Made by a program: the position numbers and the translations under genes
The notes under the pieces: model-generated
What the model saw: the letters and a program-made list of their open reading frames with translations, nothing else
The model's database searches: none
What the model was told of the DNA's origin: nothing
DNA from: Sphagnum magellanicum
Lineage: Eukaryota > Streptophyta > Sphagnopsida > Sphagnales > Sphagnaceae
Length of the DNA: 64,000 nt
Assembly (NCBI GenBank): GCA_021904315.1
Contig: CM038924.1
Coordinates: forward strand, 13,504,026 to 13,568,025
Reading direction: 5' to 3'
Shown: one piece after another, positions 33,493-64,000 of the stretch
How the letters are laid out: each line of letters starts with the position of its first letter
Numbering within the stretch: the stretch's first letter is position 1

Positions 33493-36302
33493 TCAGCTTT
33501 TAACTTTGTTATTCACAGATTGTCTTTTAGGTACTACCCTTGGTATCCGCACCAGACTAGATTTGTGAGAAGAAGACTGGGTTAATAATCTTTGCACCTT
33601 TTTCTCAAACACCTCGTCACTACATCCGTACACGCTGCCCAATGACAAGGACCCAAAAAGCTCTCCAAGGCGATTGTGCCGTGGTATTATTCTCTTTGCC
33701 AGGCTGTAGCTGAAAAATTGAGGGAATTGGACAAGCTCAGCCCGTGAACGTTTCATTGAATCCACAAGGTATCTGTACTTGGGGTCTAGAACTGTTGTTA
33801 TACTAAACCCTAAAAGAGAGGGCAACCTCCTTATCATATCTGGTAATTCCTGCTTGGTGAAACCTAGATCCAGGAAATAACTAACTGTGGGCTTCAGATT
33901 CTTCTCCACGCTCAGTGTCAGTAACTGTGGGTGCCGTGTTACCAGCTTCCCAATATCCTCTGGCTGAATTTGAATGCTTTCAAGAAACTTCACATTTGGC
34001 TGAAGCTTACCCTCGACACTATAAGCTAAGATCATGGGCTTTGTCTTCAGGACCTTGAGAAGTGCAGGCCCTTTCACTCCCAGACTGCGCAGGAACTTGA
34101 CTGTCGGTACCATATTTTCTTCTACACTGAGACCTAAAAGCTGTGGAGCATTGTAGATTACCTTGCCAAGATCTTTCTGCTCAAGCCCCAAGTTCAAAAG
34201 GAACACTGTCTTCAACTCAAAATTATGGCGATTCTTCAGTAGCTGTGGGTGACGTCTGAAAAGTTTCCCCATTAAGCCTGGCTCAACTCCCAAACTCTCA
34301 AGATGCAATACTGTGGGTCGAAAGTCCTGTTCAAGATCATAGCAAAACAACCATGGGAATGATGTCACAATCTTGTCAATGTCATCTGTGCTAGCATTTA
34401 TGCTCTTGAGGTAATCACCAATTGGACCCAAATCCTTCTCCACATCACTGTCAAGTAAAACAGGTCTCCGTACCAGGAGGCTGCCAATGTGTTTTCTTTG
34501 GACTCCAATCTGTTGTAAGTATTCCACCAGGGGCCCAAGTTTCTTTTCTGCCTTGTCTGTGAAGAGAGTGGGATCCCTCACTACTAGCCTCTTTGCATCC
34601 TTGAGTGATATACCCAGATTTTCCAGGAGCATGATTGTTGGATGCAAATCCTTTGATACATCTTGACCTAAAATCTTTGGGTACTTCGTGACCAGCTTCC
34701 CAATTTCTTTCAATGTTAACCCGATGGAGGTCAAGTACTCAGCAACCAGAGCTAGCCTGTCACATTCGTAAGAAAGGAGCTGTGGCCAACTGGAGAGAAT
34801 GCCAGGAAGATGCTCATATCTGTTACAAAGAAGAAAAATAAAATTCATCCTCACTTCTTGAAGCATGATGGTAAATCTATTCAGCATCCTCTGTAAGAAG
34901 ATGATCCATCAGCAATCTGAGTTCTTTGGCATTTGCACAAAACAAAGTACCTTACTCCAATGCTGCGCAGGAATTCAACCTTTGCCATCACAACATCTAT
35001 CCGCCAACCAACAAAAGGGAGCAGCTTGGGGACATCAACAGCCTTCATGCTTATGAGCTGGAAGTAGAAGACCAGCCTTGCCAGTCCTTGCTGCTCTGCA
35101 CACATGGACACTCTTGCTGCAAGTGATGGGAAATCATCCTCATCATCAGCCCCTCCTCCTCCTGTTGATCCCTGTGCTGCCTGATCCCGCTCTGTCAACA
35201 CTCAACCCCCAACATCAAGCTGCAACTCTCAGCCTGATGTTCTGAAATGATTCACCTGTTGGGATGACTTTTCTTGTTGGTCTCTGAATGCTGCCGGCAT
35301 TCTCCAAGTTCTCTTCTGATGACAGATCGACGAGTGTGGCACAAACTGATTTCTGGGGTTTCTGGACTGTAGGGTTTTGTGATCCCTCTTTGAATGCTGT
35401 TGGAATTCAGAAATGGCAGACTAATTTTTTGGATTTCTGGGTGGTGCTACAAATGTGGATTGAATTTTCGTGCATGATCTTGCTGGAGTGGTGGTGATGG
35501 TGTTTTCAAGGTTTGTTGCTGCTACTAGGTCCGGATTTGCAGATGCATCATTGCTACAAAGGAGGAGATTAACAGAAGGAACAGGAGATAGAGGAGGTGG
35601 CGGCAGCTTACCAGGAGTCTGCTTTGCTTCGGCAATGAGGATATCAATGAGCTCGCCAGCATATCTGACAAACTCAAATGCATATCCTGGAGTGACTCCC
35701 TTCTGTTCCAAGAGATCCAGGAGCCCATTCACAGCTTCATTCCTTTCTCTTCTGGAGAAATTAGAGGAGCCTTCAAGAGCACGAGCTTCTCGCTCCAGGA
35801 GAGTGGGAAGTTCCCTAATTCCTCCTGCTGCTGCTGCTCCTACTGCTGCCGCCTTCTTGCTGCCTTTTGTTGTTGTTGCCACAGTTGGAGGCGACACGAT
35901 CAGGTCTTGAATGTCATCGAATTCATGCTTTTCTGTACTGCTGCTGCTGTTACTGCCCTGGTGCTGCTGCTGCTTCTTGTTGACAAGCTTCTTGTCTCGC
36001 GTTGTTGTTGTTGCTGCCGCCTGTGCTGCTCCTCCTACATCGTCCGCCACACTCAGAAGACACGCGAATTTGGAGCAGCTCCTCCTGGACCTCCCTGGAA
36101 CAACTCTTCTGCCATCCCAGTTTCCATATTTGAGAGCTCTCAAGCGCCGCACAGCACTGTGGTGCACAAACGACACTCTCCTGCTGCTGGCACTACTGAT
36201 TATGTTTCTGTGACCTCCTCGACAGGAAGAGAAGCTTGTTGCGATGGTACCAGCAGCAGCAGCAGCACCAGCCAGCCAGCGAGCTCGACAGTGGAGTGAC
36301 AT
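33493..36302 (-). CDS. organellar mTERF-family protein, 3 exons, 752 aa
   Basis: mTERF proteins are helical-repeat nucleic-acid binders in plastids or mitochondria that act in transcription termination, intron splicing and ribosome assembly. Exons on the minus strand: 36,302-35,612, 35,191-34,951 and 34,819-33,493; phases agree and the total is exactly 753 codons. Residues 1-60 are Ala/Arg/Ser-rich with no acidic residues, typical of an organelle transit peptide. Residues 75-160 are low complexity (Ala, Gln, Lys, Ser). A helical region (EREARALEGSSNFSRRERNE, LLDLLEQKG) precedes exon 2. From residue about 310 there are some ten mTERF motifs with the usual P-x-LL/IL end, such as LTLKEIGKLVTKYPKILG, VQRKHIGSLLVRRPVLL, LEQKDLGKVIYNAPQLLG, IQPEDIGKLVTRHPQLL and FTKQELPDMIRRLPSLLG. 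The C-terminus is basic. The frame is intact. Which mTERF subgroup it belongs to is not clear from motifs alone. It is divergent from the RRM/CCCH gene. Confidence 0.92.
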
Positions 36303-41700: not shown

Positions 41701-44700
41701 CTATATGCACTACATGAACTTTGGATGGTATCTGACATCCTTTGTACTGTAGCAGGTAAATTGGCTTCAGTTTTGAGGCCAATAAATACATCTGTAAAAT
41801 CTGAGTTGACCCCCCAAGGTCCAGGCTTCCAGCTTCAGAGCAGCATACCGCCATTCATGCCACCAAATCCAATGCCACCAAGACTACCTCCAAATCAATT
41901 TCCTTCAGTTGCAGGCATGGTTTCACCAGATTTGCCAGACTCATTACCACAAAGGCCTTTGCCATCTTTGCCTAGTGATGGGACACAGCTCAAACAAGAA
42001 TACTCTTTTGGGCCACTGCATCCTCCAGGTATGATATGTCCAATTCTGGGAACTCATCATGTTAATAAGTTGAAACTAGTTTGCAAGGAGACTCTTACAA
42101 AAAGCAAGACCAGTACCTTGGTTTCAACCACCAGGTATCTGCCTCATAAAGAATGTTATATTGCAGTGGTATCAATACACACTGTAATTGAGATTTTTCT
42201 GATACAAAAGACACTGCAGTCTCTCTCTGTTGTTCTTTGTGTGTAATTTGTATCTGGCTTCTTCTCATGTCCTGGTGGTTTTGCATGATGGTTGGTTGGT
42301 CCCTAATACTATGTGGATGGACGGACACTACTGCATCTGTCCCTCAGGGCCATCAAATGTCTTTCCACCAGAAGCTAGTTGTTTGTCCTCACTTCGATCA
42401 ACCTCTCCACACAGCAACAATGGAACCCAACAATCATCTTCAGCAATTCCATCTGGATGGCCTTCATCTGTCCCCTCTGTGCCACCTCCACAGTTGTTTC
42501 CTCCTGGAATGGAACCCGTGACCAGCATGACTGTAACAGGAACTCCACTTGGAAGCAGGCTGAGCTCCATTGCTCCCTCTCCTACTTCCCTCATCAGCAA
42601 CAGTTTTCCTCCTCCAATGGGTACCAATTCAGCAATCCCTTCAGTTGGGCACAAGGCATTTGATGCCAGACGTGATGCACGTGAGCATGCAAAGTCAATT
42701 TTTGTGGGGAATATTCCAGTGGGCTTGGTGAATACAGTCCTGGTAATACGAGAAGCTTTGGAGGCATATTTCAAGCCTCTAGAGTTTGTGCCTGCAAAGA
42801 GTGCAGAAATTCAGCACATTTCTCTCTACGAACGCAGCACTGGCAGCTATGCTTTTGCTCAATTTTCCTCAGAGGTGTTTGCACGCATTGTCCTTGATGC
42901 TTGCCAGGTGAAAAGTATGCCATTGCAAGTCAATGGAGTACAACTTTCGGTGGGAAGAAACTTGAAGGCAGAGATGGTGCCAGCAATGCCTAGAGAGAGG
43001 ATGTTCAAAGGAGATCGTGTCTTGGACCCAGCCAAGATGTTGTACGTAGGCAACCTCCCGGAACAATGGCGTAGTGAACAACTCCTCCAGAAACGGTTTT
43101 CCGAAATTCTTGGAGGTTCCAACCCAGGAGCCGATTCCAATTTTTTGTCTGCAATCTATATTCTTCCTGAGTGTGTGGATGTCTATCTAGAGCTTTCTTC
43201 AGATGTGGTGGCAGATGCTCTGGTTTACAAGTGCATTAAGGATTCCAAGTTGTTGGAAAGCATGGGTGACTCTGTTTTCATCTGCCGCCACCCTAAGTTT
43301 GTGCCTCTTTTTGCCTTGGCAAGCAAGTCTACATCATGCACTCTTGCAATTCCAAACCAAAATGTGGAAAAGCCTCTGCCCAAGGATTCAAAACTTGCAG
43401 CTGAGGAAGAGTCGGCAAGTCGGTGGCAAAGTACTCTGTATGTAGGGAATCTGCCCCTCACAGCAGAGGCATACAATGTTCATGACTTGCGAGAGGTTTT
43501 TGACAGAATGTTGTGCTGCACACTTGAAGACAAGCCGGTTGTGAGGTGGGTGAAGGCTGTGACATGGCCTCCAGGAAGGCACTATGCCCATGTGGAATTC
43601 AACTCAGAATTGGCTGCAAATGCCATTATGGATGCCTACATTGAGCAGACAGCTGAGTTTTGCCTAAATGATGCAGCCTTTTGCATGTTCCGGCACCAAA
43701 AATATGTGCGCCCAGGGGCAGTTTACAAGACAACCAATCATGGTGTATTGAATTTGAACTTGACAGTAGAGGTAAACCAAGAGAAGAAGAGTATCAAGAA
43801 TTTAAGCTTGGAATCCCAGAGCAGTGAACAATGTCTTGATGCTTTAGAACTAGATGGAGAGGAAGGAGATGAGAGCCTCGATGAAAGTGTGCAAGCTGTG
43901 CACATGGAATTGAAGCCAGATGAAATGGCTGCAGCAGTGCATGCAGTTCCTGCACTCATCAAAGGTGTCAATGAGGTTACAGAACAAGGCAATGTGGGTG
44001 GGTGGAGCACCCATCTTTATAAGACTAGGCTATGTAATAAGTTCAACAATGGAGGTTGTCCTTATGGTGCACGGTGTAGGTATGCACATGGAGTAGAAGA
44101 ACTCTTGCGGCCTGCTCCTCCACAGATGCCTCATGCTCAGGGGAGAAGATCAGCTGTGACTCCACCATTGGGATCCAGTAGTAGTACAGGTCTGACAACA
44201 GATTTCACAGGCAGGCAAGATACCACTGATACAGGTGACGAGTATGTGGATCCAAAGAGTGTTATCTGTGTGCGGGGAGTCGCAGGTGGTCTCACTTCAT
44301 TTTCACTCAAGGGAGCCATGAATGAACTTTTTGAGAGGACACTCAAGACCACCGGTGTACTAGAATTTGGAAAGCATGTTGTGCGCTACTCACAATTTAA
44401 GGATAACTCAAAGCAGGCCCTTGTCACCCTTCTCAATGTGGAGGCTGCCACTGCAATCCTCTCAGTTGTGGAGCCTTTGAAGATTGCAGGCCAGCCTCTT
44501 GTGATACTACCATGGTCAAATATGCAGCAGCAGAAACTGCAACCACTTCCCAAAGCGAATGCTGGTCAGCCTGGGTTCCAGCCTACTTTTAACTTAGGAG
44601 ATACTCATGACGTACTGAGTTCATCTCCTGGTAATAGCAGAGCACCTCATGGTTGGCTACCCCCTTCATGGTCAGGCCCAGAGCAGCCGTGGTCTGTACA

Positions 44701-45958
44701 TCCTCCAGGGCTGTCATCTGTTGAGTGTCCGCCGCATGTTGGTCAATTTGGTCCTCCTCCCCAGACTGGTATGGTTCCACTGCCATTCTTACCTACCCAA
44801 GGTCAGCCAGACTTTGGCAGACCTCCCCTGCCAAGTGGCCCCTTATGCCATCCAAGCTTTGGTCCTCACAATGGAATCAGGCCACCACCACCATGGACAC
44901 CAAGTCCTCCAATTCCATCTGCACACCATCTTCAGTCTCCTGGTGGAGATGGGTGGCCAGCACCACCCTCTGCCTGGGTTGAGCCTCATCATGGCCTGCA
45001 TCCTGGAAACTTTGGCTGGAGACACAATGAAGGTGTGTTGCATCCCGATTTAATTTCTCCACCACTTCAGCAACACAGAGATGGTGTCCATAGAATGCAC
45101 TTTTCACATGAGGATACCAAATTCAGGGCAGAATTACTATGTCAAAGCAGCAACAAAGTTGACAAGAACACAGGTGGGTGGTTGGAAGATGATGATGATG
45201 AGCCCGGAATGCCTGCATCCGAGCCTGCTACGGGTGATGGAGACAGAAGAGGAGTGGATCCGGAGGGGGGACGGATAATCTCTGAGGAGGCCAGTGCATC
45301 TAATGTTGATCCCTTTCAACATAAGCAGGTAGACAGTGGTGCAAAGGCCGAGCTTGCAACTAGCGTATCCGACCATATTCATCCAGCAACATCGTTGTCT
45401 GATGTTTCAAGATCCGGGAAACAAACCCCTGACATTGGAAATATTTCCTTTGCAGACCAAAATCCTATCTCCAGCCAAGAACCCATCTCCAGTAGGGATA
45501 GCCATTGGGTAGAGGATGGTGAGCTTAGGCGAGAAGGGAATAAAAGGAAGCGAGAGACTGATAGGAGCGGCATTGAGGCTAAGGGACACTCTAGTCATGA
45601 TAATCGCATGACAAAGCACAAGTTACACAAGGAGGCAGACTGGGATTTGGGGGATCGAGGCCATGAAGCAAAGGACCAAAGCAGGAAGTCCAGTAGAGAT
45701 CGAGAAGTAGGCCACTCCTCCATCAGGCAGAAACCGCATCATGATCGAAGGGATCCACCTCAAGAGTCAGATGGAAGAGATGCCAGCTGGCATAGACCAA
45801 GTCGAAGCTCAGGAAGGAGATGGGATGTAGAACCCCATGAAAAATCTGACCGGGAATCACGACGGAAGTCAGATTCAGGTAACCACAAAACCAACTCTAC
45901 AAGCAAACTTGACAGGGGGACCATAGATGATAGATCAAGGTCCCGACGGCATAATTGA
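38756..45958 (+). CDS. large RRM and CCCH zinc-finger RNA-binding protein, >=2,025 aa
   Basis: Probable nuclear RNA-processing protein. Exons by splice motif and phase: 38,756-38,843, 38,909-39,030, 39,507-41,490, 41,756-42,028 and 42,348-45,958; the true N-terminus may lie further upstream. Numbering from 38,756: residues 1-70 contain VECPLPFCGIYIDH and YGVEAGWSYIEEDEYKNVLN; 71-820 are a long low-complexity, Ser/Pro-rich region. RRM-like domains lie at about 930-1030 (SIFVGNIP, GSYAFAQF), 1050-1145 (MLYVGNLPEQW), 1180-1285 (STLYVGNLP, HYAHVEF) and 1455-1545 (VICVRGV). One C-x7-C-x5-C-x3-H finger (TRLCNKFNNGGCPYGARCRY then AH) sits at about 1380-1402. Residues 1560-1735 are Pro/Gly-rich and 1885-2025 are Arg/Ser/Asp/His-rich, like an RS domain. 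Combined RRM and CCCH domains resemble U2AF-, RBM26- or plant C3H41-like factors; I cannot pick one. An alternative donor at 41,545 is also in phase (see findings). If the upstream exons are wrong, translation could start at the ATG at 39,609. Confidence 0.85.
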
Positions 45959-49351: not shown

Positions 49352-49666
49352 TTAGTGCCTTTGTTGTGAACACCAAAGCTTGAGGTTGAAAAGTGGGTCA
49401 CGTTTCATCAATTCCTCCAAAGCGTGTTCCAAAGCATGTTTACCTCCTCTACTAGTTACAATTGCCCAAAAACCATCTAGTACTGAAATAGCAGACATGG
49501 AATGGTCATGGTTGTGAAGATCATGGAGATCTTTTTCATTGTGGCAAGTATCACACAAATCAAAATTTGGACATACATCACAATGCCAACGATGTGTCAT
49601 GATGGGGACACAACCACAACCGTCACATTCGAATACCATATGCCGACCAGTTGTTGGGTTGAACAC
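49352..49666 (-). CDS. ZZ-type zinc-finger exon (C-terminal exon)
   Basis: A TTTCAG acceptor precedes a 104-codon frame ending in TAA at 49,352. Near its start it reads GRHMVFECDGCGCVPIMTHR, WHCDVCPNFDLCDTCHNEKD and HDLHNHDHSMSAISV. This gives the ZZ pattern C-x2-C, C-x2-C, C-x2-C and H-x-H with the usual W-HC-x2-C-x-DFDLC core, closest from memory to the ZZ finger of UBR4/BIG-type proteins. ZZ fingers bind peptides or modified N-termini. The tail (GGKHALEHALEELMKRDPLF) is helical. It is intact and is the last exon in the series on this strand. It might instead belong to a separate gene fragment, because the exon before it is disabled. Confidence 0.75.
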   Translation of the reverse strand: MFNPTTGRHMVFECDGCGCVPIMTHRWHCDVCPNFDLCDTCHNEKDLHDLHNHDHSMSAISVLDGFWAIVTSRGGKHALEHALEELMKRDPLFNLKLWCSQQRH

Positions 49667-50289
49667 CTGAAAGTGACAAAGTTTTCTAGATGTTAGATCA
49701 ATTGACTTTATATTACCCTAATCTATAGACCAATAAATTCTATCTTACATGAACATGGATTATGACATACCTAAAAATTTGCTTTGAATTCCATGGCTAA
49801 CCAACCTCAAGGTCACAAATTCTGGTATAATGAAGTTCTTTAATAACTTAAACAATTCCAACATTCCAAGTTGTTTTCAAGAGAGATACTAATGAACAAG
49901 AAATTAAAGTAAAATAAATTTTATACATACATCACATGTGACCTTATCAAAGTTCTGAATGGGTTTCCATAATTAATCTAGTGAATTCTTTATCCCATGT
50001 TAAAAGTAGTCATATCAAGTGCATATGTTCTCTAACATTAGGTGGCCAAGAACTTTTGGGAAAATCATTATTAATAAGTGGCAAAAAAAGAAAGAAAAGG
50101 AAAACATATAAAATTGATTAAATCACACATTAATTACATCTTAATTATTATGGTAGAGACAACAAATATTTTGAATAATGTCCACATATGTGATATGGAT
50201 GTGTAATCAAAAGTCATTGTTGTGGTATTAGGCATCTCAAATATTAGATATGGGTCTTACTCCTTTTGCTAGTGTTATGTAAATGTGTT

Positions 50290-50961
50290 TCAACTAGAGA
50301 AAGGAAAATTGAAAATTTGTAAAACATTATTTAGGATTGTAGTTGTACGCACCGGAACCCACTTCCATGTATCCCTTAGGATAGATTTTGGATTGTCAAC
50401 TAACAATGATGAAGTCAATTTTTCTTTTGTTCCTTGTGACTACACATCCACATTGGAGTCACCCTCAATTGTCCCATTTGCCACCACATGTATCTCCCCA
50501 AGCACTGAATACACCACACATATTGCCCTTTGATTCACGGTAATAGCCCATCTCTGGTACCTTGATCTTGCATACACACATATCTTGTCACCATGTTTCA
50601 AAGCATGCACAAATGGATGTTGCCTTCACAATGTGCAAAAATACACTTGGTCTTTGTCATCAGCTTCCCGCAATTTGAACAAATGACTAATGAAGACTTC
50701 TTCGTTGTTTCTAATAATGCGAGCTTCCATGGAGCACCAACCATGTTCGTACCGACCATGGTTCCGATCATAATCAGACCACCCTTGATCATGTGCCACA
50801 AAAGAGAAGATGACTGCAATGCATTCTTCTGGCTTTGTAACAGTGGCTTCCATGCAAATTTCATTTGCATCCTATTTTCCAATCACTTTTCTTCCCATGC
50901 CATTATTCACAAACCTCAAGTTGTCATCATAATAGCTAACCAATTGCAAGGTTGGTTCTTC
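50290..50961 (-). pseudogene. exon with HDQGWS-type module, three in-frame stops
   Basis: After a TTGCAG acceptor the phase-0 frame from 50,961 reads EEPTLQLVSYYDD, NNGMGRKVIGK, stop (50,874-50,872), DANEICMEATVTKPEECIAV, IFSFVAHDQGWSDYDRNHGR, YEHGWCSMEAR, VFISHLFKLREADDKDQVYF, CTL, stop (50,628-50,626), HALKHGDKICVYARSRYQRW, stop (50,442-50,440), and further open sequence with DTWKWVPVRTTT to near 50,290. Keeping one frame for about 220 codons around the stops shows former coding. The HDQGWS..HG.Y..GW..+E.. block followed by GD.I.++ARS+Y.GW is a pattern I have seen in uncharacterised, probably beta-sandwich, domains of fungal and plant proteins; I do not know a function. The downstream end of the exon is uncertain. 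Confidence 0.6.
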
Positions 50962-51476
50962 CTGCAACACATGAGTGTAGAGTCTTTAGCAATGTAAATG
51001 ATCAAGTGGAAGTGACCATATTTGAATAACCCATGTTGATCAAGAGTAGAACTTCAAAAGATTTGTCTCTTTATAGAATATACATATGTCTATTTTTATG
51101 TTAAAATACAACGAGTAATACATCTCTACATGCATATTGCACAACTTACTGAATGTCATGACTTTGACAAATGCTTAAATTGTTGCAAGAACAAAATTAT
51201 GAGCCATGTGCATGAACATTATTCATTTGAGTTTTGAACAACTAGACACTTGATTATAACTACTCATATGTGATGAATTATTAAATAGATAATGTAGAAT
51301 AAAAACCTACTCGTATTGAATTCAAAAAAACAATAAGAGGTCAGCAAAGGTACTTCCAAGAATTAAATTTAAATTGAAGACTAGTATAAAGATTTGACAA
51401 GTCATGCTTCTCATTATGTTCCAAAGTATGCAGATTTGCAAAAGCAATATAATTCAATCTCGAGTTTGAATCTTAC

Positions 51477-54400
51477 CTTCAACCAATCATTGTCAATTGG
51501 CATAGAAATGTAACTACCACTCAAGTAACATGCTCCCAAGGCTCCATTGTGGTTTAGATTTGGTACATTTTGCAACATGGTGCAACCTGATAAGTTCATT
51601 CTCTCTAAAGTAATCAAGGATTCTAGGTCTTGCAATTGTGTCAAGCTTGTGCAGTTGCATAATATCAAAGACTTTAACAAATACAAATTTCTCAATGATG
51701 GGATATCAATCAACTTGGGACAATCGCCTAAGCCTAGGGACTCCAAGCTCCATGGCAAACCTTGAACATCCACAAGGTTTGGACAATGATGCATCTCCAA
51801 GTAAACCAATGCTTGCAATTCTTTGAAACTCTCAGGAAGAGTGACCACCATATAATTGTACTGTAGTTGAAGTCGTGTGAGTGCACTAAGGCCCCCAAAA
51901 TCTGAAGGCAATCCCCCCTATTGAATTGAGTTGTTGCCAATATGAAGGTCAACAAGTGATTTAAGTCTTCCAAATCCTTCCGAGAGCATTTCCAACTTAG
52001 GATTGTCATTCATTCGGAGTCTTTGGAGTTGGAGGAAACCAAAACTTTGAGGAAGAGTTTGCAAGTTTTTGCACTCGTAAAGATGCAATTCAACAAGGTT
52101 TTGAAGGTGCCCAAAATCCTCTGGAAGTGTTTGCACTCCAATATGCCCCATGTGGAACAACTTCAACTTCACAAGCCCACTCATGGAGGGCAATTCTTGG
52201 ATCTTCTCACACTTGTGGAGATGCAAGTCTTCCAAGTTGGACAATTTTGAAAATGAATGTGGTAGTTTTGACAAGGAAGTTGCATCAGCCCAAAATTCAT
52301 CCAATCTTTGAAGTTTCCCAAATTCTTCTGGCAAAGATTTCAACTTGGTGCAATTAATCAACCATAATTTCTCGAGTTTCGACAAGAGACAAATGGTGTC
52401 AGGTAACCTCTCCAAAGTTGTGCAGTTTGATAAGTTCAATTGCCTAAGTTCCATTAATTCGCCCACAGAATCAGGTAAGGCCTTCAATGTTGAGCACCCT
52501 TGCACATCCAAATTCCTCAATCTTGATAGTTTCCCGATAGTTTGAGGAAGTTCTTCAAGAGCAGCACAATCCTTGAGTATCAACATTTGCAACTCCTTAC
52601 AAAGAAACTGTAATCCAACATTTTAAAAGCATGAAGTTTTGATTAAGATTTTGATTTAAAAGGGGGTTCACTCCATGACAAACCCCATCTGCTAATACCG
52701 TGTATCTTATTTTGGAATTAAAACCAAGAAAATTACTCACTTTTGAAAAAATTAATGTTGAGTAAAAATAATACAACAAAAACGAAAATTGGACAACAAA
52801 ATCCTAGATAACCAAATAAGCTATTGAATTGTTTCAACCATTTTGGATGTACAACATGAAAATAGAGGTAGGACCTTACCTTGTCATTGCAGGAAAAATG
52901 TTACGCCTTCATCTTTACCATATAAAACATATGAACAAGTTCCCATGACTAACATCCAAATAAAAGAAAAACCAATTGAAGGAGAGTATGCAAAACTAAT
53001 ATCTTAAGGTGTGAACTCATATGTTGAACAATTTCTAGCAATCAAAATTTGTGTTAACTAAGTTCAACAGTTGTGCATCTACTGGTTATGAAGATATATG
53101 ATTCTTAGTGCATCATTCGACCTATTTCTAGGGTTTGTACCTCATCATTGGAATTCTTGGGAGAAATTCGAGTCAAACTCTTGCTGCCAGTGAGGTCCAA
53201 CACTGATAAATTGAAAAGGAATCTTCCAAATCCTTCCGGGAGCATTTCCAACTTAGGATTGTCATTCATTTCAAGTGTTTGGAGTCGGAGGAAACCAAAA
53301 CTTTGAGGAAGAGTTTGCAAGTTTTTGCACTCGTAAAGATGCAAGTTAACAAGGTTTTGAAGGTGCCCAAAATCCTCTGGAAGTGTTTGCACTCCAATAT
53401 GCCCCATGTGGAACAACTTCAACTTCACAAGCCCACTCATGGAGGGCAATTCTTGGATCTTCTCACACTTGTGGAGATGCAAGTCTTCCAAGTTGGACAA
53501 TTTTGAAAATGAATGTGGTAGTTTTGACAAGGAAGTTGCATCAGCCCAAAATTCATCCAATCTTTGAAGTTTCCCAAATTCTTCTGGCAAAGATTTCAAC
53601 TTGGTGCAATTAATCAACCATAATTTCTCGAGTTTCGACAAGAGACAAATGGTGTCAGGTAACCTCTCCAAAGTTGTGCAGTTTGATAAGTTCAATTGCG
53701 TAAGTTCCACTAATTCGCCCACAGAATCAGGTAAGGCCTTCAATGTTGAGCACCCTCGCACATCCAAATTCTTCAATCTTGATAGTTTCCCGATAGTTTG
53801 AGGAAGCTCTTCAAGAGCAGTACAATCCTTGAGTATCAACATTTGCAACTCCTTACAAAGAAACTGTAATCCAACATTTTAAAAGCATGAAGTTTTGATT
53901 AAGATTTTGATTTAAAAAGGGGTTCACTCCATGATAAACCCCATCTACTAATACCGTGTATCCTATTTTGGAATTAAAACCAAGAAAATTATTCACTTTT
54001 GAAAAAATTAATGTTGAGTAAAAATAATACAACAAAAACGAAAATTGGACAACAAAATCCTAGATAACCAAATAAGCTATTGAATTGTTTCAACCATTTT
54101 GGATGTACAACATGAAAATAGAGGTAGGACCTTACCTTGTCATTGGAGGAAAAATGTTACGCCTTCATTTTTACTATATAAAACATATGAACAAGTTCCC
54201 ATGACTAACATCCAAATAAAAGAAAAACCAATTGACGGAGAGTATGCAAAACTAATATCTTAAGGTGTGAACTCATATGTTGAACAATTTCTAGCAATCA
54301 AAATTTGTGTTAACTAAGTTCAACAGTTGTGCATCTACTGGTTATGAAGATATATGATTCTTAGTGCATCATTCGACCTATTTCTAGGGTTTGTACCTCA

Positions 54401-56907
54401 TCATTGGAATTCTTGGGAGAAATTCGAGTCAAACTCTTGCTGCCAGTGAGGTCCAACACTGATAAATTGAAAAGGAATCTTCCAAATCCTTCCGGGAGCA
54501 TTTCCAACTTAGGATTGTCATTCATTTCGAGTGTTTGGAGTCGGAGGAAACCAAAACTTTGAGGAAGAGTTTGCAAGTTTTTGCACTCGTAAAGATGCAA
54601 GTTAACAAGGTTTTGAAGGTGCCCAAAATCCTCTGGAAGTGTTTGCACTCCAATATGCCCCATGTGGAACAACTTCAACTTCACAAGCCCACTCATGGAG
54701 GGCAATTCTTGGATCTTCTCACACTTGTGGAGATGCAAGTCTTCCAAGTTGGACAATTTTGAAAATGAATGTGGTAGTTTTGACAAGGAAGTTGCATCAG
54801 CCCAAAATTCATCCAATCTTTGAAGTTTCCCAAATTCTTCTGGCAAAGATTCCAACTTGGTGCAATTAATCAACCATAATTTCTCGAGTTTCGACAAGAG
54901 ACAAATGGTGTCAGGTAACCTCTCCAAAGTTGTGCAGTTTGATAAGTTCAATTGCGTAAGTTCCACTAATTCGCCCACAGAATCAGGTAAGGCCTTCAAT
55001 GTTGAGCACCCTCGCACATCCAAATTCTTCAATCTTGATAGTTTCCCGATAGTTTGAGGAAGCTCTTCAAGAGCAGTACAATCCTTGAGTATCAACATTT
55101 GCAACTCCTTACAAAGAAACTGTAATCCAACATTTTAAAAGCATGAAGTTTTGATTAAGATTTTGATTTAAAAAGGGGTTCACTCCATGATAAACCCCAT
55201 CTACTAATACCGTGTATCCTATTTTGGAATTAAAACCAAGAAAATTACTCACTTTTGAAAAAATTAATGTTGAGTAAAAATAATACAACAAAAACGAAAA
55301 TTGGACAACAAAATCCTAGATAACCAAATAAGCTATTGAATTGTTTCAACCATTTTGGATGTACAACATGAAAATAGACGTAGGTCCTTACCTTGTCATT
55401 GGAGGAAAAATGTTACGCCTTCATCTTTACTATATAAAACATATGAACAAGTTCCCATGACTAACATCCAAATAAAAGAAAAACCAATTGAAGGAGAGTA
55501 TGCAAAACTAATATCTTAAGGTGTGAACTCATATGTTGAACAATTTCTAGCAATCAAAATTTGTGTTAACTAAGTTCAACAGTTGTGCATCTACTGGTTA
55601 TGAAGATATATGATTCTTAGTGCATCATTCGACCTATTTCTAGGGTTTGTACCTCATCATTGGAATTCTTGGGAGAAATTCGAGTCAAACTCTTGCTGCC
55701 AGTGAGGTCCAACACTGATAAATTGAAAAGGAATCTTCCAAATCCTTCCGGGAGCATTTCCAACTTAGGATTGTCATTCATTTCGAGTGTTTGGAGTCGG
55801 AGGAAACCAAAACTTTGAGGAAGAGTTTGCAAGTTTTTGCACTCGTAAAGATGCAAGTTAACAAGGTTTTGAAGGTGCCCAAAATCCTCTGGAAGTGTTT
55901 GCACTCCAATATGCCCCATGTGGAACAACTTCAACTTCACAAGCCCACTCATGGAGGGCAATTCTTGGATCTTCTCACACTTGTGGAGATGCAAGTCTTC
56001 CAAGTTGGACAATTTTGAAAATGAATGTGGTAGTTTTGACAAGGAAGTTGCATCAGCCCAAAATTCATCCAATCTTTGAAGTTTCCCAAATTCTTCTGGC
56101 AAAGATTCCAACTTGGTGCAATTAATCAACCATAATTTCTCGAGTTTCGACAAGAGACAAATGGTGTCAGGTAACCTCTCCAAAGTTGTGCAGTTTGATA
56201 AGTTCAATTGCGTAAGTTCCACTAATTCGCCCACAGAATCAGGTAAGGCCTTCAATGTTGAGCACCCTCGCACATCCAAATTCTTCAATCTTGATAGTTT
56301 CCCGATAGTTTGAGGAAGCTCTTCAAGAGCAGTACAATCCTTGAGTATCAACATTCGCAACTCCTTACAAAGAAACTGTAATCCAACATTTTAAAAGCAT
56401 GAAATTTTGATTAAGATTTTGATTTAAAAAGGGGTTCACTCCATGAGAAACCCCATCTCCTAATATCGTGTATCTTATTTTGGAATTAAAACCAAGAAAA
56501 TTACTCACTTCTGAAAAAATTAATGTTGAGTAAAATAATACAGCAAAACGAAATTTGGACAACAAAATCCTAGATAACCAAATAAGCTATTGAATTGTTT
56601 CAACCATTTTGGATGTACAACATGAAAATAGACGTAGGTCCTTACCTTGTCATTGGAGGAAAAATGTTACGCCTTCATCTTTATTATATAAAACATATGA
56701 ACAAGTTCCCATGACTAACATCCAAATAAAAGAAAAACCAATTGAAGGAGAGTATGCAAAACTAATATCTTAAGGTGTGAACTCATATGTTGAACAATTT
56801 CTAGCAATCAAAATTTGTGTTAACTAAGTTCAACAGTTGTGCATCTACTGGTTATGAAGATATATGATTCTTAGTGCATCATTCGACCTATTTCTAGGGT
56901 TTGTACC
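51477..56907 (-). repeat. 1,256-bp tandem exon-intron duplication (about four units)
   Basis: Unit boundaries recur exactly every 1,256 bp: exon starts at 56,375, 55,119, 53,863 and 52,607, and exon ends at 55,653, 54,397 and 53,141 (plus 56,907, 1,254 bp away). Each unit holds an LRR exon and the following intron, including the conserved intronic aaaagcatgaagttttgatt and atttctagcaatcaaaattt stretches. Copies differ at only scattered positions. For example, codon 99-region TKLESLPEE occurs in L2 and L3 but TKLKSLPEE in L4 and L5. Confidence 0.95.
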
Positions 56908-57191
56908 TCATCATTGGAATTCTTGGGGGAAATTCGAGTCACAGTCCTGCTGCTAGTGAGGTCCATCACTGATAAATTGAGAAGGCCTCGCGTTGGAGGT
57001 AGCTCTGACAAGGGCAAAGACCACCATTGCAGCCGTCTCAATTCTTCAGACCAAGTAGAAAAGTCGCCCTTGACTTGACAATGATCCAATATGAGAAAGT
57101 GAAGTTCACTCATTCTGGTATATGTTTCAGCTTTCCAAGCTGCACCATCTTTTGCTCCTGCTATTAAAAGCCCTCGGACTGTATCTGTTCC
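51477..57191 (-). CDS. LRR region: one leader exon and four tandem LRR exons
   Basis: Exon L1 (57,191-56,907, 95 codons) reads GTDTVRGLLIAGAKDG, MSELHFLILDHCQVKGDF and LRRLQWWSLPLSELPPTRGL, the sequence that follows NB-ARC in plant resistance proteins, and ends SPKNSNDE before a GTACAA donor. L2, L3 and L4 (56,375-55,653; 55,119-54,397; 53,863-53,141) are 241 codons each and nearly identical, starting FLCKELQMLILKDCTALEEL, with about nine repeats of the C-x-x-L-x-x-LP type. L5 (52,607-51,477, 377 codons) shares the first ~215 codons and then continues with different repeats (GGLPSDFGGLSALTRLQLQY) to a GTAAGA donor after DNDWLK. All exons are phase 0. L5 has one in-frame TAG at 51,920-51,918. 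LRRs would form the ligand-sensing solenoid. Confidence 0.85.
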
Positions 57192-57720
57192 CTACAAAAG
57201 CCACAAAATCTCACAATTCAATTTTGCAATACTTCATGAATGTTACACCTAACGTTTGGAGTTTCATGCAAGCAAGGTATATAAGTTGAATATGATATGG
57301 GTACTTGGGAATTATTTGATTATATGCATGATGCACATGAAGATCATGTGGTAGGGTTGAGATTATAGAGACCAACAATTTGCAAAATGACATCTTTTGC
57401 ATGTCAATTCATCTATATGTTAGTGTAGAATTTTTTTTGTGCTAGTAGTTCAAATAGATGTTTTCCCCATTCCGTCCAAACTAAATTTACACATATCATC
57501 ATGTTGATGTCTCAAGCCAACTAGGCAATCTGTTAACCAAACAATTTGTGCATAAACATGAAGTCATAATGTCCTTCACATTATTTACAAGTTTTTCAAA
57601 TTTTCATCTATGTACATTAAATTATTTCATGCATTTCCAATTGAAAAACATGTTATAATTAAGAAATCAACTATAATAATAAAAAATAGTGTGAAAAAAA
57701 TTTCACCTCCATGGCACTAC

Positions 57721-59849
57721 CTGATTGTCTTCTTTGTGTGGTTCAACAAAATGAAAGTTTTGCATTTGGGTGATTGAAGAGACCTACATGAACCATCATT
57801 GTCATAAGTGAATTAATAGTACATTATCACATGGGTTCATGAGAAGCATCTTGACTTATGTATCATACTATTGTAGACAAGTCTCACTTGGATTATTTAA
57901 CTTACACTTCTAACACCACCCATTATGAAATCACAAGTCTACATAATACAATGTAAACTAAAGGAATGATTAAAAGAACTATGTTGTGACTTCATGCCAA
58001 ATATCTCTCTCATATTAGCACAAATAAAAGGACATCGGAAACATAGATCAAGTAGGCTTACAAGAAGCTCCCCATTTTTCCAAAAATTATCCAAATTTTT
58101 ATTTTTTTTATTAAGCAAAACTTTATTCCTCTATACAAAATCTTCAAAGGGTAGCTTTTATTCGTTAGAAGGAAAATAAAATTGACCATATGAGAAATTA
58201 AAAATCTTTAAACTTACAAAGTCTCAAAATCTTGTAAAATCGACTATTCATGATTCTCAACTTAGTAATAATAAAACTATTGGAATGAACATGAGGCATA
58301 TGAATCATGTCAATACCTACATACTTTTGTCGAGTATTATGAATTAAAAGTATCACAAGATAATACAAGCTTCACATATAGATCCAACAAATTACAAGAG
58401 AAGTTTTTAGAAATATAATTCAACCCACAAGATGTTTTTGGGAACATGTTATTTTACTAAACGAGACTTGGTCTAGGTACATACAAATTTCAAAATTAGA
58501 AAAATTAAGAACGAAAAGATCATCCACAAACCTATCAACAAGGGACAATTCATGAAGCACAAAAGGACAAGTGTTATTCTTTAAGAGATGCTTGAAAAAA
58601 TCAAACTCATAGGACAAAATATAGAAAATAGTTGAATAGACAACACCATTAGTATCCATGGGGATACCAATACATTGTCCATAAACACAATGACAAAAAC
58701 CAATAAACAAATTATCTAACTACAACAAATCCAACCAATAAATCAAATTTAAAGCCTCCACAACTTCAAACCTATGAAGATTTTCAAACAAATTTATTTC
58801 TTCTTTATTCTTTACCCACAAAACCTAAAGTTCAAACTTGTTCTTTGAACCCAAAAAAACTTAAAATGATGAAGTTTCAACATTCAATTAGACAATTTAT
58901 TAGTCAAAACATTCATATGAGCTTTTGGATCCATTAGCTCTATTTTAGTGTACACAATTTAAAAATCAAAAGATTATAGCAAGAGTGGAGCAACTTTATC
59001 ATTTTGTGATTTCAAAAGATTAAACAATTTTATTACATCCACTACTCATGTATAATCATTAAGAATACAATTACTAATACAAGGAACATTGGCTTTTTTG
59101 AATTTTGACACTCAAAGGTCGTTAATTGTATGAAATATAAGTTTGTAGAACTTTAGGCAAGTTGAGATTTGTTATTATCATTTGATCAATTTAATTTAAT
59201 TTTTAATGGTTGTTTGTTAATAGGGTTCATTAAGAACCATACATACTACATGTCCTCAAATCATAATGGAAGTCATTCGTTAAACCTAAGGTCATTAAAA
59301 AAGGATTATACATGGATATATGTTTGAATAGGCAACATGTGTAGATTTAGCATGATGTTTTTGAACATTAAAATGAACTATTTTAATTGGATAGTGTAGA
59401 ATTGCAATTGGGGGAAAAAAAATTGTCCAATAAAAGGTAGTTGATAAAACAAAACTCACCTCCATGGTCTTCGGCATGTTCAAAATGTTCTTTTCGTGCG
59501 ATTCAATAGATTGTTGCAAGTTGTCCACTTGAGTAACTAAAGAGGCCTACAATCCATTACTAAACACATGTGAATTCATGTGTACACACATAATTTGCAT
59601 AGTCAAAACTAAGCAACACAAATACATTACTATAACCATGAAAAAAAACATCGATTAAAAATCTTTTGATCTATTCTAGAAGTGAATGAATAGTTTCAAT
59701 TGAGAAAACATTGCACGAACACAAAAAAAAATTGAAAATATTGATTAACATGAAGCAAATGTCACCTCCATAGGTTTAGGTAGTTTTGAAATCTCCTCTT
59801 CCTGTGATACAACATTATACAAGTTTTTAATTTGAGTAGCCAAGGAGGT
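57721..59849 (-). CDS. three short related exons encoding a repeated coiled-coil-like motif
   Basis: Three minus-strand pieces of 84, 87 and 63 bases share the pattern S-(L/S)-x-T-Q-(I/V/M)-x-N-(L/F). They are 59,849-59,766 (SLATQIKNLYNVVSQEEE), 59,546-59,460 (ASLVTQVDNLQQSIESHEKN, ending PKTME) and 57,783-57,721 (VSSITQMQNFHFVEPHKEDN). The second has clean TAG/GTGAGT borders; the third has TAG and CAG/GTAGTG; the first has a good donor (GAG/GTGACA) but its acceptor AG appears mutated. All are in phase 0, so copies can be added or skipped without a frame change. Heptad-like spacing suggests a coiled coil between hydrolase and LRR. The last two are separated by the retroelement remnant at 58.1-58.8 kb. 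Confidence 0.55.
58060..58790 (-). mobile_element. Penelope-like element reverse-transcriptase remnant
   Basis: Minus-strand frames contain LVDNLFIGFCHCVYGQ-like text, then CIGIPMDTNGVVYS (GIPMGTN block), ILSYEFDFFKHLLKNNTCPF, the catalytic block RFVDDLFVLNF (R-[YF]-[IV]-DD), MYLDQVSF and, after stops, DMIHMPHVHSN, ITKLRIMNSRFYKILRLCKF and NKSYPLKILYRG. This order (GIPMGTN, RY+DD, then H.HSN and an ..Q+.R...+C block) is that of Penelope-like reverse transcriptases. No GIY-YIG endonuclease and no terminal repeats were found. Stops make it dead. It lies inside an intron-like gap of the hydrolase-LRR locus. Confidence 0.65.
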
Positions 59850-60098
59850 TAATGAATCATTTTTGAAAGAAACATGACAATATATAGAAAGTTATATCAT
59901 CACATTAATGCAATAAATATATAATATAAACCCATAAAACCTAAGGTCTTCCAAATATGACCTCCATTATCTTTCTTATTTGATAACCAATATATATGAT
60001 ATTGCATATGCGTTACACATCAAGTGTGTTATGACCTAATGTGTTTCAAATTACATGAACATATATGAAATCAAAAAAATTAGATTTGATGTTTTTAC

Positions 60099-62162
60099 CT
60101 GCATACATATTCTTAAACACTGTAACAATAAAGAATAGCTTGGATGAGCCTTGTTTGGTGGCTTGCAAATGGTCAAATGATCAGCATCCTCAATTTTATA
60201 ATGGTTGTTTGACAATTGAGTGGCTGAGACATATGGCACTAAAATTTCCTGCAAGTGCAAAAGATTAAGTTAATGGAACTCTTTGATTTGTTCGATCACT
60301 TATCCTTTTAGTTATAAACCAAATGGTGGTGGAAACTATAACTTAATAACTATTGATGTTTGAATAATAATGAAATATTGTGTACAAGTAATTTCCTTCA
60401 ACCCTTTGGCAAGCAATTTATATAGATACATAAAAAAGTTATTGGTTTTTAATCTCAGGAATCTTACATGTTTTAACGATGTTATGATTTTCTTTAAAAA
60501 TATTTATGTGGAATTGATTTGATGAAGGGAAATTTTAAACCTATTTCTTGATGTTTGAAATCAATCACATTTCATTTCCATCAATAGTAATTCATGAAAC
60601 AAAGTTCATCAAACACATGACCCATTCACCACATTAATATATTTAGAAGTGTTGAGTACATGATCCCACACAAGTTTTGACAATACAAAAAATGTTCGAC
60701 TAACGAACCAAGTTCGATAACTTTCAATGTGATATAATGAAAATCTTACCCAATTCTTGTCGACTGGTAATCCTTCGCCAAATTCATAAATGATGAGGTC
60801 ATGAACAATATCTTTAAACTCCTTTGAAAGGGACTCCATTTGTTGGTTGAAAGGTTCTAAATTTCTTGCAAAACCAAGTTGGGCAAAATGTTTGTTGGAT
60901 GTGTTGATTTGTTGACATTGCCATTTGAAATATTTTGATAAATTAGTAGCACCAGAATGTGGTACACCATAAAATATTACACCTTTGACATTGTTCAAAA
61001 ATGTTTTACAACATTTTTGTATTTTATCATCCAAACGATTTGTTAGCCTTTGATATAAACGTTTGTGAGCTTCAACCACCAAGCTTTTGAGTACAAGACC
61101 TCCAAAACTATAAGCAACTAATGTCACTGGTCCATCCCAAAGGGATTGATAACTACAAAACATTCAACAATGCACCAAAATTCCATTATCAACATTGTAT
61201 TAATATGTACAAATTCATCCTATTATACTTGGGGCAATTTTCCAATTCACGCATGACCTAAGCCATAAGTTCATAATTGATTTGCTTGTCCTACATCATT
61301 TTTCATTTATTGATTCCATTAATCTACCTAGAAAATGTGACAACCATGTTTTGGTAAAGCAATTATTATGCACAAGTATGTAAATGTGTACATTCTTTTA
61401 CAACTCATCTTTTATGTGTTACGTTGGAAATATAGTTGAAAATTTAAAATTATATATGTATATATGTTTTTAAATAAGTTTTTTCGCAATGAAATGGATG
61501 AAAATTATCTACACATGTATCAATTTAATTCAATTGCATTACCAAAGATAAAACTTCAAAAAACATGAACTAAAAATTGCCATAAAAACCAAACTAGTTG
61601 TACCATGAATTTAAAATATGAACATAGACTTTACTATTATCCTCAAACAAGAACATTTGCATTTAAGCCCCATTTTATGTTCTCCTACATGAATCTAACA
61701 ATTCAAGTAAATTGAAACTTGTTGGTGTGTATTGCAATACTAATACACATGAACAATTAACTCGTGCAAAACATGTAAGAAATTCTAAAGATGTAAAAAA
61801 ATAGCTTTAATGTACACAAGGAATAGTAGTTAATGTGTTCATAAATAGAGGAGATTTTCACACCTTGAATTTGCAATCAAACTTTGAATGAGGTTTTTTC
61901 CAATTTCAGTCACATCATCATGAACACTTGCCACAATGTGAGAATCATAGGACAATGATAAAATTCGAACATTGTTGTTCAAGTCTTCAGGTAACCACTT
62001 TTCTGGCCAACATATGCATTCTTCTCTATCATTGGTGGGACGTGTTGTCCATGTTTCCTTCCATGCATCATTCGTGCCAAAAACAATCCCATGAAAAAAA
62101 ATGATGGTGAAGTTTGGATTATTGGAATTGCAAGTGGGATTTAAATCATGCACTAGATATTT
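60099..62162 (-). CDS. SERAC1-like alpha/beta-hydrolase module, three exons
   Basis: Exons 62,162-61,864, 61,152-60,750 and 60,248-60,099 join in phase to 284 open codons. Exon one has the first strand and oxyanion region (NPNFTIIFFHGIVFGTNDAW, CWPEKWLPEDL, VRILSLSYDS). Exon two has the nucleophile elbow AYSFGGLV (G/A-x-S-x-G type, with Ala for the first Gly), LKSLVVEAHKR, VKGVIFYGVPHSGATNLSKY and IYEFGEGLPVDKNW. Exon three has VPYVSATQL, the candidate catalytic His in EDADHLTICKP, and HPSYSLLLQCL. These follow the order of SERAC1/PGAP1-like lipases and of the N-terminal domain of bryophyte HNL receptors. This part is uninterrupted. The residues before KYLVHDLNP would need an upstream exon, which I could not identify. 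Confidence 0.8.
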
Positions 62163-64000
62163 CTGCAAAGAAAATGAAAACGAGTCAACACAATTCTTCA
62201 TACCTTTCTTGGAAATTATTAGACTACACATGAAATAAAAAAAATGCAATATACAAATTATAGTAGTTAAACAAAGACAATAATTAGTCGAAAAGATTAA
62301 GTTTAACAAGATGACAATAATAGATGAATCAAAGAATACCAAATCTAGCTTGTATGACTAACAAATGAAGATCATTCACTTGTCATAGACCTCAAATTTT
62401 GAAAACATAGTTCAATAAGCAAACGTTGTTACATAGTAGGTGGAATGCATGCCAAATAATAAAGGTTAATGATCCGGATTGGATTCTTTCAAGTTTGGGT
62501 TGATTAACTAAGCCATCTAGTATGGTTCACTTGTATTTCATGACATCTTCCCCCAACAATTAGGCCTCTAAGATCTTTGATGGCTAAGGAATTGCGACAC
62601 AAACCCAATAAGAATGTCCAAGAACATTGTCCATCCATTATACATATGTTCTTTATGTGAAGAATTAACATTATTCAATAAATAAATTGAAAAGTGAAAA
62701 TATCTAATCATACAATTGGAAACTTGAATGTGCACCTTGTCTATTGAAAGACATATATGTCATTTTCATTAGTAGCAAATGTTTACCTCTTTGATTATGT
62801 CCACAATTTGATGATTTTTTTTAATAATGCTAGTGCATTTATTCATCATGGAGTTCCCCATGATGATAGAATGCCTATGCAACAAGTAGAAATGTGTATG
62901 AAAACAAATAAATTTATGGTTGAAAAAATGCCTCCTTGGTTGTTTTGGAGATGTAAATGCCCCACCTTTCGAAAGCAATTTGTCAATTCTATGTGGCTAT
63001 ATGAATTTGGACATATTGTATATATGCTTTGTAGCAAGGTGCAATGTAGACATATCAATAATGTAAATATCTGTCTCCACGACGTTTAGTATGTTAGAAC
63101 ACATAGGTATTGTGTGTGAATGAATCTTCTCATGCTTTTGTCATTAATTTGCCTTCAACCATTGGACGATCACCTTAAATTACTAGTTTAACATTCTTAC
63201 TTCACCTAAACTATTGAACTTCCTTCCATTTATCAAGGAACAAACATGGATTGTGTCAACAAGTAAACATTATCAAATGACAATTTTTTCATATTATTTA
63301 AAATTAAATGAAATTGACAGATTTCACTACCTAAAATCATAATGTGAAATGCTTTTGTAAGTAAAAGGTAAAGATTTGATGAGTAATGCTTATTCAACCA
63401 AGCCTATTCAAGCAAATGACTATATGATTATATGAACAAGTTCCATTAACAATATTCATTTAAAAACTCAAATTAAAACAAGTCTAAAACTTACAACTAA
63501 TGCCATAAACTAACTTGAATGCCCAATGTTCCTTAAAACTAAAACCCTCAAATGATCACATTGGTTTATGGTGGCCAATTCACTTTCTAACTTTGATTGT
63601 TGTTAGATGGGTGTACAATATGTATCAAGTTGCATCTAACCTAGTGATAAATTGCATCCTCAACCAGGTTTAATGTGGCCATGGATCCAAACCACTTTAT
63701 TTGCTAAGGTGACACAATAATTACTATTAAATAATCCTACCATGGATGGCTTTTGAAATACTTACACAATGGGAAAACATGATTCAACTCCATAAAATTA
63801 AAGATTTCCAATTTTAAACATATGCAATTTTCACCCACACTTTTCATTGTTCCACAATTATGAAATTGAAAGCGTTGAAAACACCCCCCACAACCACATT
63901 CAACTATTTTTTCTTGGAATATTGCATGAAGTTTTCTAAAAATTCTACCACCTCCCTTGTCAACATCGTTCAATTATAGAAACCATTCTTGGACCATGTT
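62163..64000. other. AT-rich flank of the hydrolase-LRR locus
   Basis: The missing first exon of the minus-strand gene should lie here or beyond the window, but no ATG-led, splice-bounded exon was identified. A 78-codon minus frame at 63,973-63,737 has several Cys (VECGCGGCFQRF) but no known pattern. Confidence 0.5.
62820..63030 (+). pseudogene. possible decayed hydrolase-module copy on the opposite strand
   Basis: The plus-strand frame reads FFNNASAFIHHGVPHDD, then QQVEMCMKTNKFM and FRKQFVNSMWLYEFGH. Compared with the hydrolase exon at 61,152-60,750 (FLNNVKGVIFYGVPHSG ... FKDIVHDLIIYEFGE) it keeps F-NN, I, GVPH and YEFG at similar spacing. Similarity is weak and flanking parts are not recognisable. 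If real, it marks an inverted relic of the same gene family next to the locus. Confidence 0.35.

Follow-up and report, generated by a model that had tools for sequence, protein, structure and literature searches.

The window analysed here is a 64,000-nucleotide stretch of the Sphagnum magellanicum genome (GCA_021904315.1, contig CM038924.1, referred to below as contig 18 or C18; 13,504,026-13,568,025), and the genome searches were run against the assembly of 438,994,042 bases in 31 contigs. Near its end the minus strand carries hydrolase, linker, leucine-rich repeat (LRR) and ZZ zinc-finger exons that appear to form a recently assembled mosaic gene, derived from three families of NLR immune receptors, in which the nucleotide-binding domain NB-ARC was omitted and an open frame kept. 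We put the probability of this reading at about 0.72, a figure that covers the origin and the frame of the gene and not its role. The source families are the hydrolase-NBS-LRR genes (HNL), the TIR-NB-ARC-LRR-ZZ genes (TNL-ZZ) and a group of NLR loci at C1:3.67-3.78 Mb, C1:7.09 Mb and C2:22.55 Mb, called C1-type here.

Sequence origins

Along the locus the homology passes from one family to another in the following segments:

62808..63600 (examined to 63600), minus strand: segment A, 5' flank with 93-94% identity to five C1-type NLR loci
62629..62807, minus strand: about 180 bp without C1-type or hydrolase-NLR matches, the gap between query 793 and 973
59967..62628, minus strand: segment B, hydrolase cassette of HNL type, 87-94% DNA identity to HNL loci L020-L028
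57535..59966, minus strand: segment C, C1-type NLR linker region containing small exons and the remnant of a retroelement
58420..58719, minus strand: the reverse-transcriptase-like retroelement remnant, no Pfam match at E 0.1
49352..57536, minus strand: segment D, L1-LRR-ZZ part, TNL-ZZ genes

The edges of these segments are sharp. In segment A, the matches at C1:3773504, C1:3671418, C1:3716265 and C2:22551964 span query 92-793 and that at C1:7090346 spans 105-793, all ending at 62808; the same five loci also match query 1-94 as a separate piece, and a sixth, weaker locus (C1:5008658) reaches 87% over part of the segment. The hydrolase cassette is bounded on both sides: homology of 9/9 HNL loci ends downstream at 59966-59973, and upstream eight of the nine stop at 62628 although they remain alike among themselves beyond it, L020 stopping at 62480. 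A DNA search with the 5' flank returned 31 HNL matches, every one of which begins at 62628-62623.

Segment C is 93-95% identical to the five C1-type loci (C1:3.67, 3.72, 3.78, 7.09 Mb; C2:22.55 Mb) over 58700-59960, up to which the DNA comparison was carried, and 87-93% from 58420 onward, 58421-58699 having been compared as protein only; four of the five reach 57535, three with an extra 0.5 kb. The second linker exon, CC2, has eight matches in the genome, namely three mosaic copies and the five C1-type loci. The remnant at 58420-58719, which we take to be Penelope-like, also occurs in four C1-type genes, where CC2 precedes and NB-ARC follows it, and next to CC2 at C2:22.55 Mb. It thus travelled with segment C, and is no proof that a retroelement made the join.

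At the junction 57535/57536 the C1-type matches end at query 886 and the 12 TNL-ZZ matches start at 885. All 12 begin at 57536 with 94-98% identity, and the same edge is found in 5/5 fetched loci (L032, L034, L038, L043, L047). Matches of the more distant C6 members L045 and L046 are confined to 56948-57206 (72%), and that of L040 to the part up to 57021. A 7-base microhomology considered at this second junction was dropped, since the flanking matches overlap by 2 bases only. The front half of the TNL-ZZ family was identified by Pfam in L043 (TIR PF01582, E 5.6e-24; NB-ARC, E 3.1e-30), and similar frames are present in L032, L034 and L047.

In each source family the NB-ARC lies just outside the piece that was used. 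It directly follows the third hydrolase exon, H3, in 9/9 fetched HNL loci; it lies 0.6-0.7 kb before the point equivalent to 57536 at all 12 TNL-ZZ matches; and at four C1 loci (NB-ARC matches C1:3676848, 3721710, 3778460 and 7084809) a gap of 90-99 bp separates it from the end of the shared segment. Together with the sharp switches among three families, this placement argues that recombination bypassed NB-ARC, and that it was not lost by deletion within a single gene. The C1-type loci match both segment A and segment C, with about 1.7 kb of their sequence lying between the two matches, and it is at this spot that the hydrolase cassette is found in the window.

Gene model

The modelled exons and associated features, all on the minus strand, are:

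62199..62201, minus strand: candidate start ATG (MKNCVDSFSFSLQ...), with a matching codon in the frame of HNL locus L021; a candidate only
61864..62162, minus strand: hydrolase exon H1 with its modelled acceptor, through which the frame from the candidate ATG reads
60750..61152, minus strand: hydrolase exon H2, contains A-Y-S-F-G
60099..60248, minus strand: hydrolase exon H3, ends in phase 0
59766..59801, minus strand: linker exon CC1
59460..59546, minus strand: linker exon CC2, heptad-like by eye
57721..57783, minus strand: linker exon CC3, donor GTAGTG, phase 0 kept
56907..57191, minus strand: exon L1 (GTDTVRGL...), in the TNL-ZZ family the first exon following NB-ARC; acceptor at its start
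55653..56375, minus strand: LRR unit 1
54397..55119, minus strand: LRR unit 2
53141..53863, minus strand: LRR unit 3
51918..52607, minus strand: last LRR exon as far as the in-frame TAG (51920-51918)
51414..51917, minus strand: LRR end, downstream of the stop
50629..50871, minus strand: exon-like open stretch between LRR and ZZ, downstream of the stop, contains the FVAHDQGWSDYDRNHGRYEHGWCSMEA sequence
49352..49717, minus strand: ZZ zinc-finger exon (PF00569, E 2.1e-11), downstream of the stop

The original prediction, made from the letters of the window, had placed hydrolase, small linker, GT-x-VRGL, LRR and ZZ exons on one strand, and all of them are indeed there. Its claim that the phases agree throughout holds from H1 to the last LRR exon: with GT/AG sites and compatible phases as far as the LRR, the modelled exons splice from the ATG at 62201 to the TAG at 51920-51918 into a single open frame of 1,406 codons, encoding a hydrolase, a coiled-coil-like linker and LRRs. 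The claim fails for the step to ZZ, which that TAG separates from the rest. None of the homology switches falls within a modelled exon, and the exon phases fit, so that the reading frame was preserved and the NB-ARC of none of the sources was carried over.

An N-terminal alpha/beta-hydrolase of the HNL kind is recognised in the spliced hydrolase exons by PF05057 (23.2 bits, cut-off 20.3), and the phase-0 intron that follows the hydrolase in HNL genes is present as well. Acceptor and donor hexamers of H1-H3 lie at the same places in 11/11 other loci aligned, and the exons are closely related to hydrolase exons that precede NB-ARC elsewhere in the genome. We take A-Y-S-F-G in H2 (AYSFGG, by eye) to be a nucleophile-like motif, making serine-hydrolase activity putative. 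A search of the PDB with the hydrolase gave four matches, the best of which (E 0.5) is an ATPase found by chance, and thus no usable solved relative. Pfam scans, confined to H1, H2, the spliced hydrolase, the CC2 frame, L1, the LRR and ZZ exons, found no TIR, and the open stretch 50629-50871 has no Pfam match at E 0.1.

The same TAG is carried by the closest copy, L035 (C18:13.907-13.917 Mb), which has an additional stop inside its ZZ exon; at this codon the TNL relative L043 has CAG and L047 a glutamine. LRR and ZZ, expected in one reading frame in a TNL-ZZ gene, are therefore parted here, and since the LRR end and ZZ both lie behind an in-frame stop, hydrolase, LRR and ZZ do not make up one reading frame. 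ZZ lies behind a stop in both copies checked. The surroundings (C18:12.4-14.4 Mb) are a cluster of TIR-NB-ARC-LRR-ZZ genes, in which a stop falls within 7/14 ZZ matches.

Search for NB-ARC

A profile was made from 13 NB-ARC exons of this genome and run against 2,694 frames of the whole window; no NB-ARC was found, the best E being 2.2. The same profile gave E < 1e-100 on frames of L021, L032 and L043, whose NB-ARCs were among the training sequences, so that this is a control of the procedure and not of its sensitivity. Genome searches with TNL-ZZ and HNL NB-ARC proteins placed none at 13.50-13.57 or 13.86-13.92 Mb among the matches listed (the best 114 of 331 candidates for the TNL-ZZ query and the best 141 of 361, in 142 rows, for the HNL query), and a further NB-ARC search, of which the best 125 of 380 candidates were listed, had none in the window. 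The profile and the comparison of loci agree on the gap at 57.2-60.1 kb: no match lies between the hydrolase and L1, as had been predicted. In the window locus we thus found neither the NB-ARC of an HNL gene nor that of a TNL gene.

In the ZZ family NB-ARC precedes L1 in stretches L032, L034, L038, L043, L045, L046 and L047. Among the ZZ places fetched, a further two seem damaged, L039/L040 (14.06 Mb) consisting of LRR and a piece of L1 without NB-ARC, and L041/L042 (13.80-13.82 Mb) of ZZ and the LRR end only. For the hydrolase side we paired the best 150 of 296 H3 matches with 142 NB-ARC matches of the HNL query and 12 hand-picked ones (11 NB-ARC and one hydrolase without effect); against the remaining NB-ARC matches, the 19 exceptions alone were checked by eye. 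On this basis an NB-ARC is listed no more than 7 kb downstream of 131/150 H3 exons, and no more than 2.5 kb downstream of 129 of them; the 19 without one comprise the three mosaic copies and 16 others. These others (C8:23004970, C6:684571, C3:4825652 and 13 more H3 places) are further possible NB-ARC-free hydrolase loci among the matches listed.

In the intron before L1, a P-loop-like frame at 57453-57527 (CLVGLRHQHDDMCKFSLDGMGKTSI) is 88-100% conserved across 15 matched places. We weighed it as a possible NB-ARC relic. The 15 matches lie at the same intron place of TNL-ZZ or mosaic genes, and none is in an NB-ARC exon.

Copies and selection

The genome-wide search for paralogues that had been proposed returned three copies with the same junctions, that of the window among them, all on contig 18 (13.56, 13.87 and 13.91 Mb) and unbroken across 62808, 62628, 59967 and 57536. 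Junctions common to three copies show that no one-off assembly join is involved. The 13.87 Mb copy was read as far as the equivalent of 57100, and no ZZ match was found within 20 kb downstream of it.

Between the window and L035/L036, 45 of 3,947 non-coding sites differ (~1.1%), and the nearest relatives stand farther away (HNL 5-7%, C1-type 5-13%, TNL-ZZ 2-6%). From these distances we judge that the mosaic predates its copies and probably arose after its split from the source relatives.

The hydrolases of the three copies, 284-286 codons long, have no stop or frameshift, and both length changes are of whole codons, the two deletions being common to the window and L018. They differ by 7 synonymous and 5 non-synonymous substitutions, where 20-28% synonymous is expected under neutrality (P 0.004-0.026 by transition rate; the counts are few and the copies related to one another). 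HNL locus L020 was excluded from substitution counts because of a one-base frame offset in its third exon. By these counts the hydrolase is under some purifying constraint between copies, and the LRRs are not. Against HNL hydrolases the ratio of non-synonymous to synonymous rates (dN/dS) of the window is 0.33-0.87, indicating that constraint is uneven within the wider hydrolase family.

At 51966-56390 the LRR exon and its intron are repeated in tandem with a period of 1,256 bp, an array absent from the original prediction, the copies being 97-99% alike; three units precede the last LRR exon in the window copy and one in the sister. The TNL-ZZ neighbour L032 has expanded separately, with three full units spaced at 1,318 bp plus a partial unit, so that growth of the LRR exon looks recurrent in the contig 18 cluster.

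Elsewhere in the window we noted an mTERF-family frame at 33493-34908 (PF02536, E 3.1e-82) in a GC-richer part and, at 42203-45958, a long open frame (1,251 aa) that includes a CCCH zinc finger.

Alternative explanations

Several observations weigh against a mosaic with a maintained frame. The gene model is drawn from sequence alone, and CC3 depends on a weak-looking donor. The absences of NB-ARC and of hydrolases come from the best-scored part of the candidates, and are no proof. The hydrolase signal is strong only between the window and L018 (5 synonymous, 1 non-synonymous; 3 and 4 between the window and L019, 6 and 5 between L018 and L019), and gene conversion among copies could imitate constraint. 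Neither L1 (2 synonymous, 5 non-synonymous) nor the last LRR exon (229 codons, with 3 differences of synonymous and 16 of non-synonymous type) carries a purifying signal, and the stop common to two copies, together with that in the sister's ZZ, would suit a pseudogene. Finally, the 1.7 kb of the C1-type genes, which would hold their own N-terminal domain, is known by its length only, and the hydrolase may either have been inserted or have replaced a homologue.

Taken furthest, these points would suggest that the mosaic has the same recombinant origin and is fully dead, the hydrolase frame of its non-functional copies being open merely because they are young. This deserves serious weight, somewhat short of even odds: the TAG before the LRR end is shared, the LRRs are unconstrained, and non-coding divergence among the copies is only ~1.1%, to be set against an open frame of 1,406 codons across the modelled exons, a hydrolase free of stops and frameshifts in three copies, and its synonymous excess. 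Two adjacent genes, a hydrolase or hydrolase-linker gene that stops short of 57.5 kb followed by a truncated LRR gene with its own start, seem unlikely. The two halves are joined on sequence evidence only, and one may speculate that the retroelement remnant in the 2.4 kb linker segment holds a terminator; however, phase-0 sites on either side yield one frame, there is an acceptor at the start of L1, and the arrangement is kept to 57100 in three copies.

The original prediction offered the choice between an NB-ARC deletion relic and a new architecture. What stands of it is the missing NB-ARC and the order hydrolase-linker-LRR, and a mosaic of three families takes the place of either option. Loss of the NB-ARC exon from one hydrolase-NLR gene would fit its position directly after H3 in HNL genes and its lack here, but the LRR-ZZ half is 94-98% TNL-ZZ-like near the junction, the linker is 87-95% C1-type-like with edges between the two, and 0/9 fetched HNL loci match beyond 59966. 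The switches among three families lead us to reject simple deletion, which we regard as very improbable. NLR clusters are difficult to assemble, and unrelated NLR genes might be fused artificially; with identical junctions in three separate contig 18 copies at 1-4% divergence, such an artefact is hardly credible.

Mechanism and role

For the recombinant mosaic with a kept frame we propose that the hydrolase cassette of a hydrolase-NLR gene came to lie between a C1-type 5' flank and a C1-type coiled-coil-like linker, and that this front half was joined to a TIR-NB-ARC-LRR-ZZ gene of the contig 18 cluster within the intron that separates NB-ARC from the first LRR exon. The segments themselves are observed, and the sequence of recombination events is inferred from them. 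If expressed, the product would be a hydrolase-linker-LRR protein of ~1,406 residues ending ahead of the LRR end and ZZ. Having no nucleotide switch, it cannot work as a canonical NLR. Its likeliest role, if any, might be that of a hydrolase attached to a linker-LRR arm and serving either as an enzyme, constitutive or under the control of a partner, or as a decoy, while the tail decays. An enzyme on an LRR arm, a partner-dependent subunit and a decoy thus seem conceivable, a dead locus being about as likely. That the three copies encode an expressed NB-ARC-free immune receptor or decoy, coupling an LRR sensor to an enzymatic output and with its hydrolase under selection, we consider doubtful. 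Should the protein be produced, it would put to the test whether a hydrolase fused to LRRs is able to act in the absence of a nucleotide switch.

Relation to known systems

The locus offers a recent example of the reshuffling of plant immune receptors in which close relatives of each source remain in the same genome, and the switches can be placed to about a dozen bases (59967) or two bases (57536). Plant NLRs that lack a core domain or are of chimeric origin are known in general as truncated or domain-shuffled forms; unlike them, here the three source families are identified in the same genome and NB-ARC is bypassed in each. No such gene is described in the titles and abstract openings of a partial literature collection.

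Passages of two papers describe HNL (Hyd-NLR) genes from bryophytes (PMC3352924, PMC11218826); the phase-0 intron after the hydrolase is given there as an HNL feature, and exon shuffling via introns between domains is proposed for bryophyte NLR classes (PMC3352924). According to passages of PMC11218826, HNLs were at first considered liverwort-specific, Sphagnum hydrolase-NLRs are on record, and N-terminal hydrolases of non-flowering-plant NLRs, when expressed, take part in immune-related responses. The mosaic agrees with the independent gain of N-termini by Sphagnum hydrolase-NLRs suggested in that source.

With HNL genes the window gene shares its alpha/beta-hydrolase N-terminus, in three exons here and followed by a phase-0 intron, at 87-94% DNA identity to nine loci of the same genome; it differs from them in having no NB-ARC and in taking linker and LRR from other families, the LRR part being 94-98% TNL-ZZ-like in a comparison that took in no HNL LRRs. 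TNL-ZZ genes (L032, L034, L038, L043, L047) have the same L1, LRR and ZZ exons, 94-98% identical around the junction, whereas in the window gene TIR (identified by Pfam in L043 only) and NB-ARC are replaced, a TAG precedes the LRR end and the LRR exon is amplified. C1-type NLRs contribute the 5' flank, CC2 and the retroelement remnant; unlike the window gene, four C1 loci have an NB-ARC match downstream of the linker (none is listed for the C2 locus), and no hydrolase lies near any of the five among the best 150 of 345 and the best 150 of 296 candidates. Intron-based exon shuffling and Sphagnum hydrolase-NLRs are already known; what is new here is a mosaic of three NLR families that bypasses NB-ARC.

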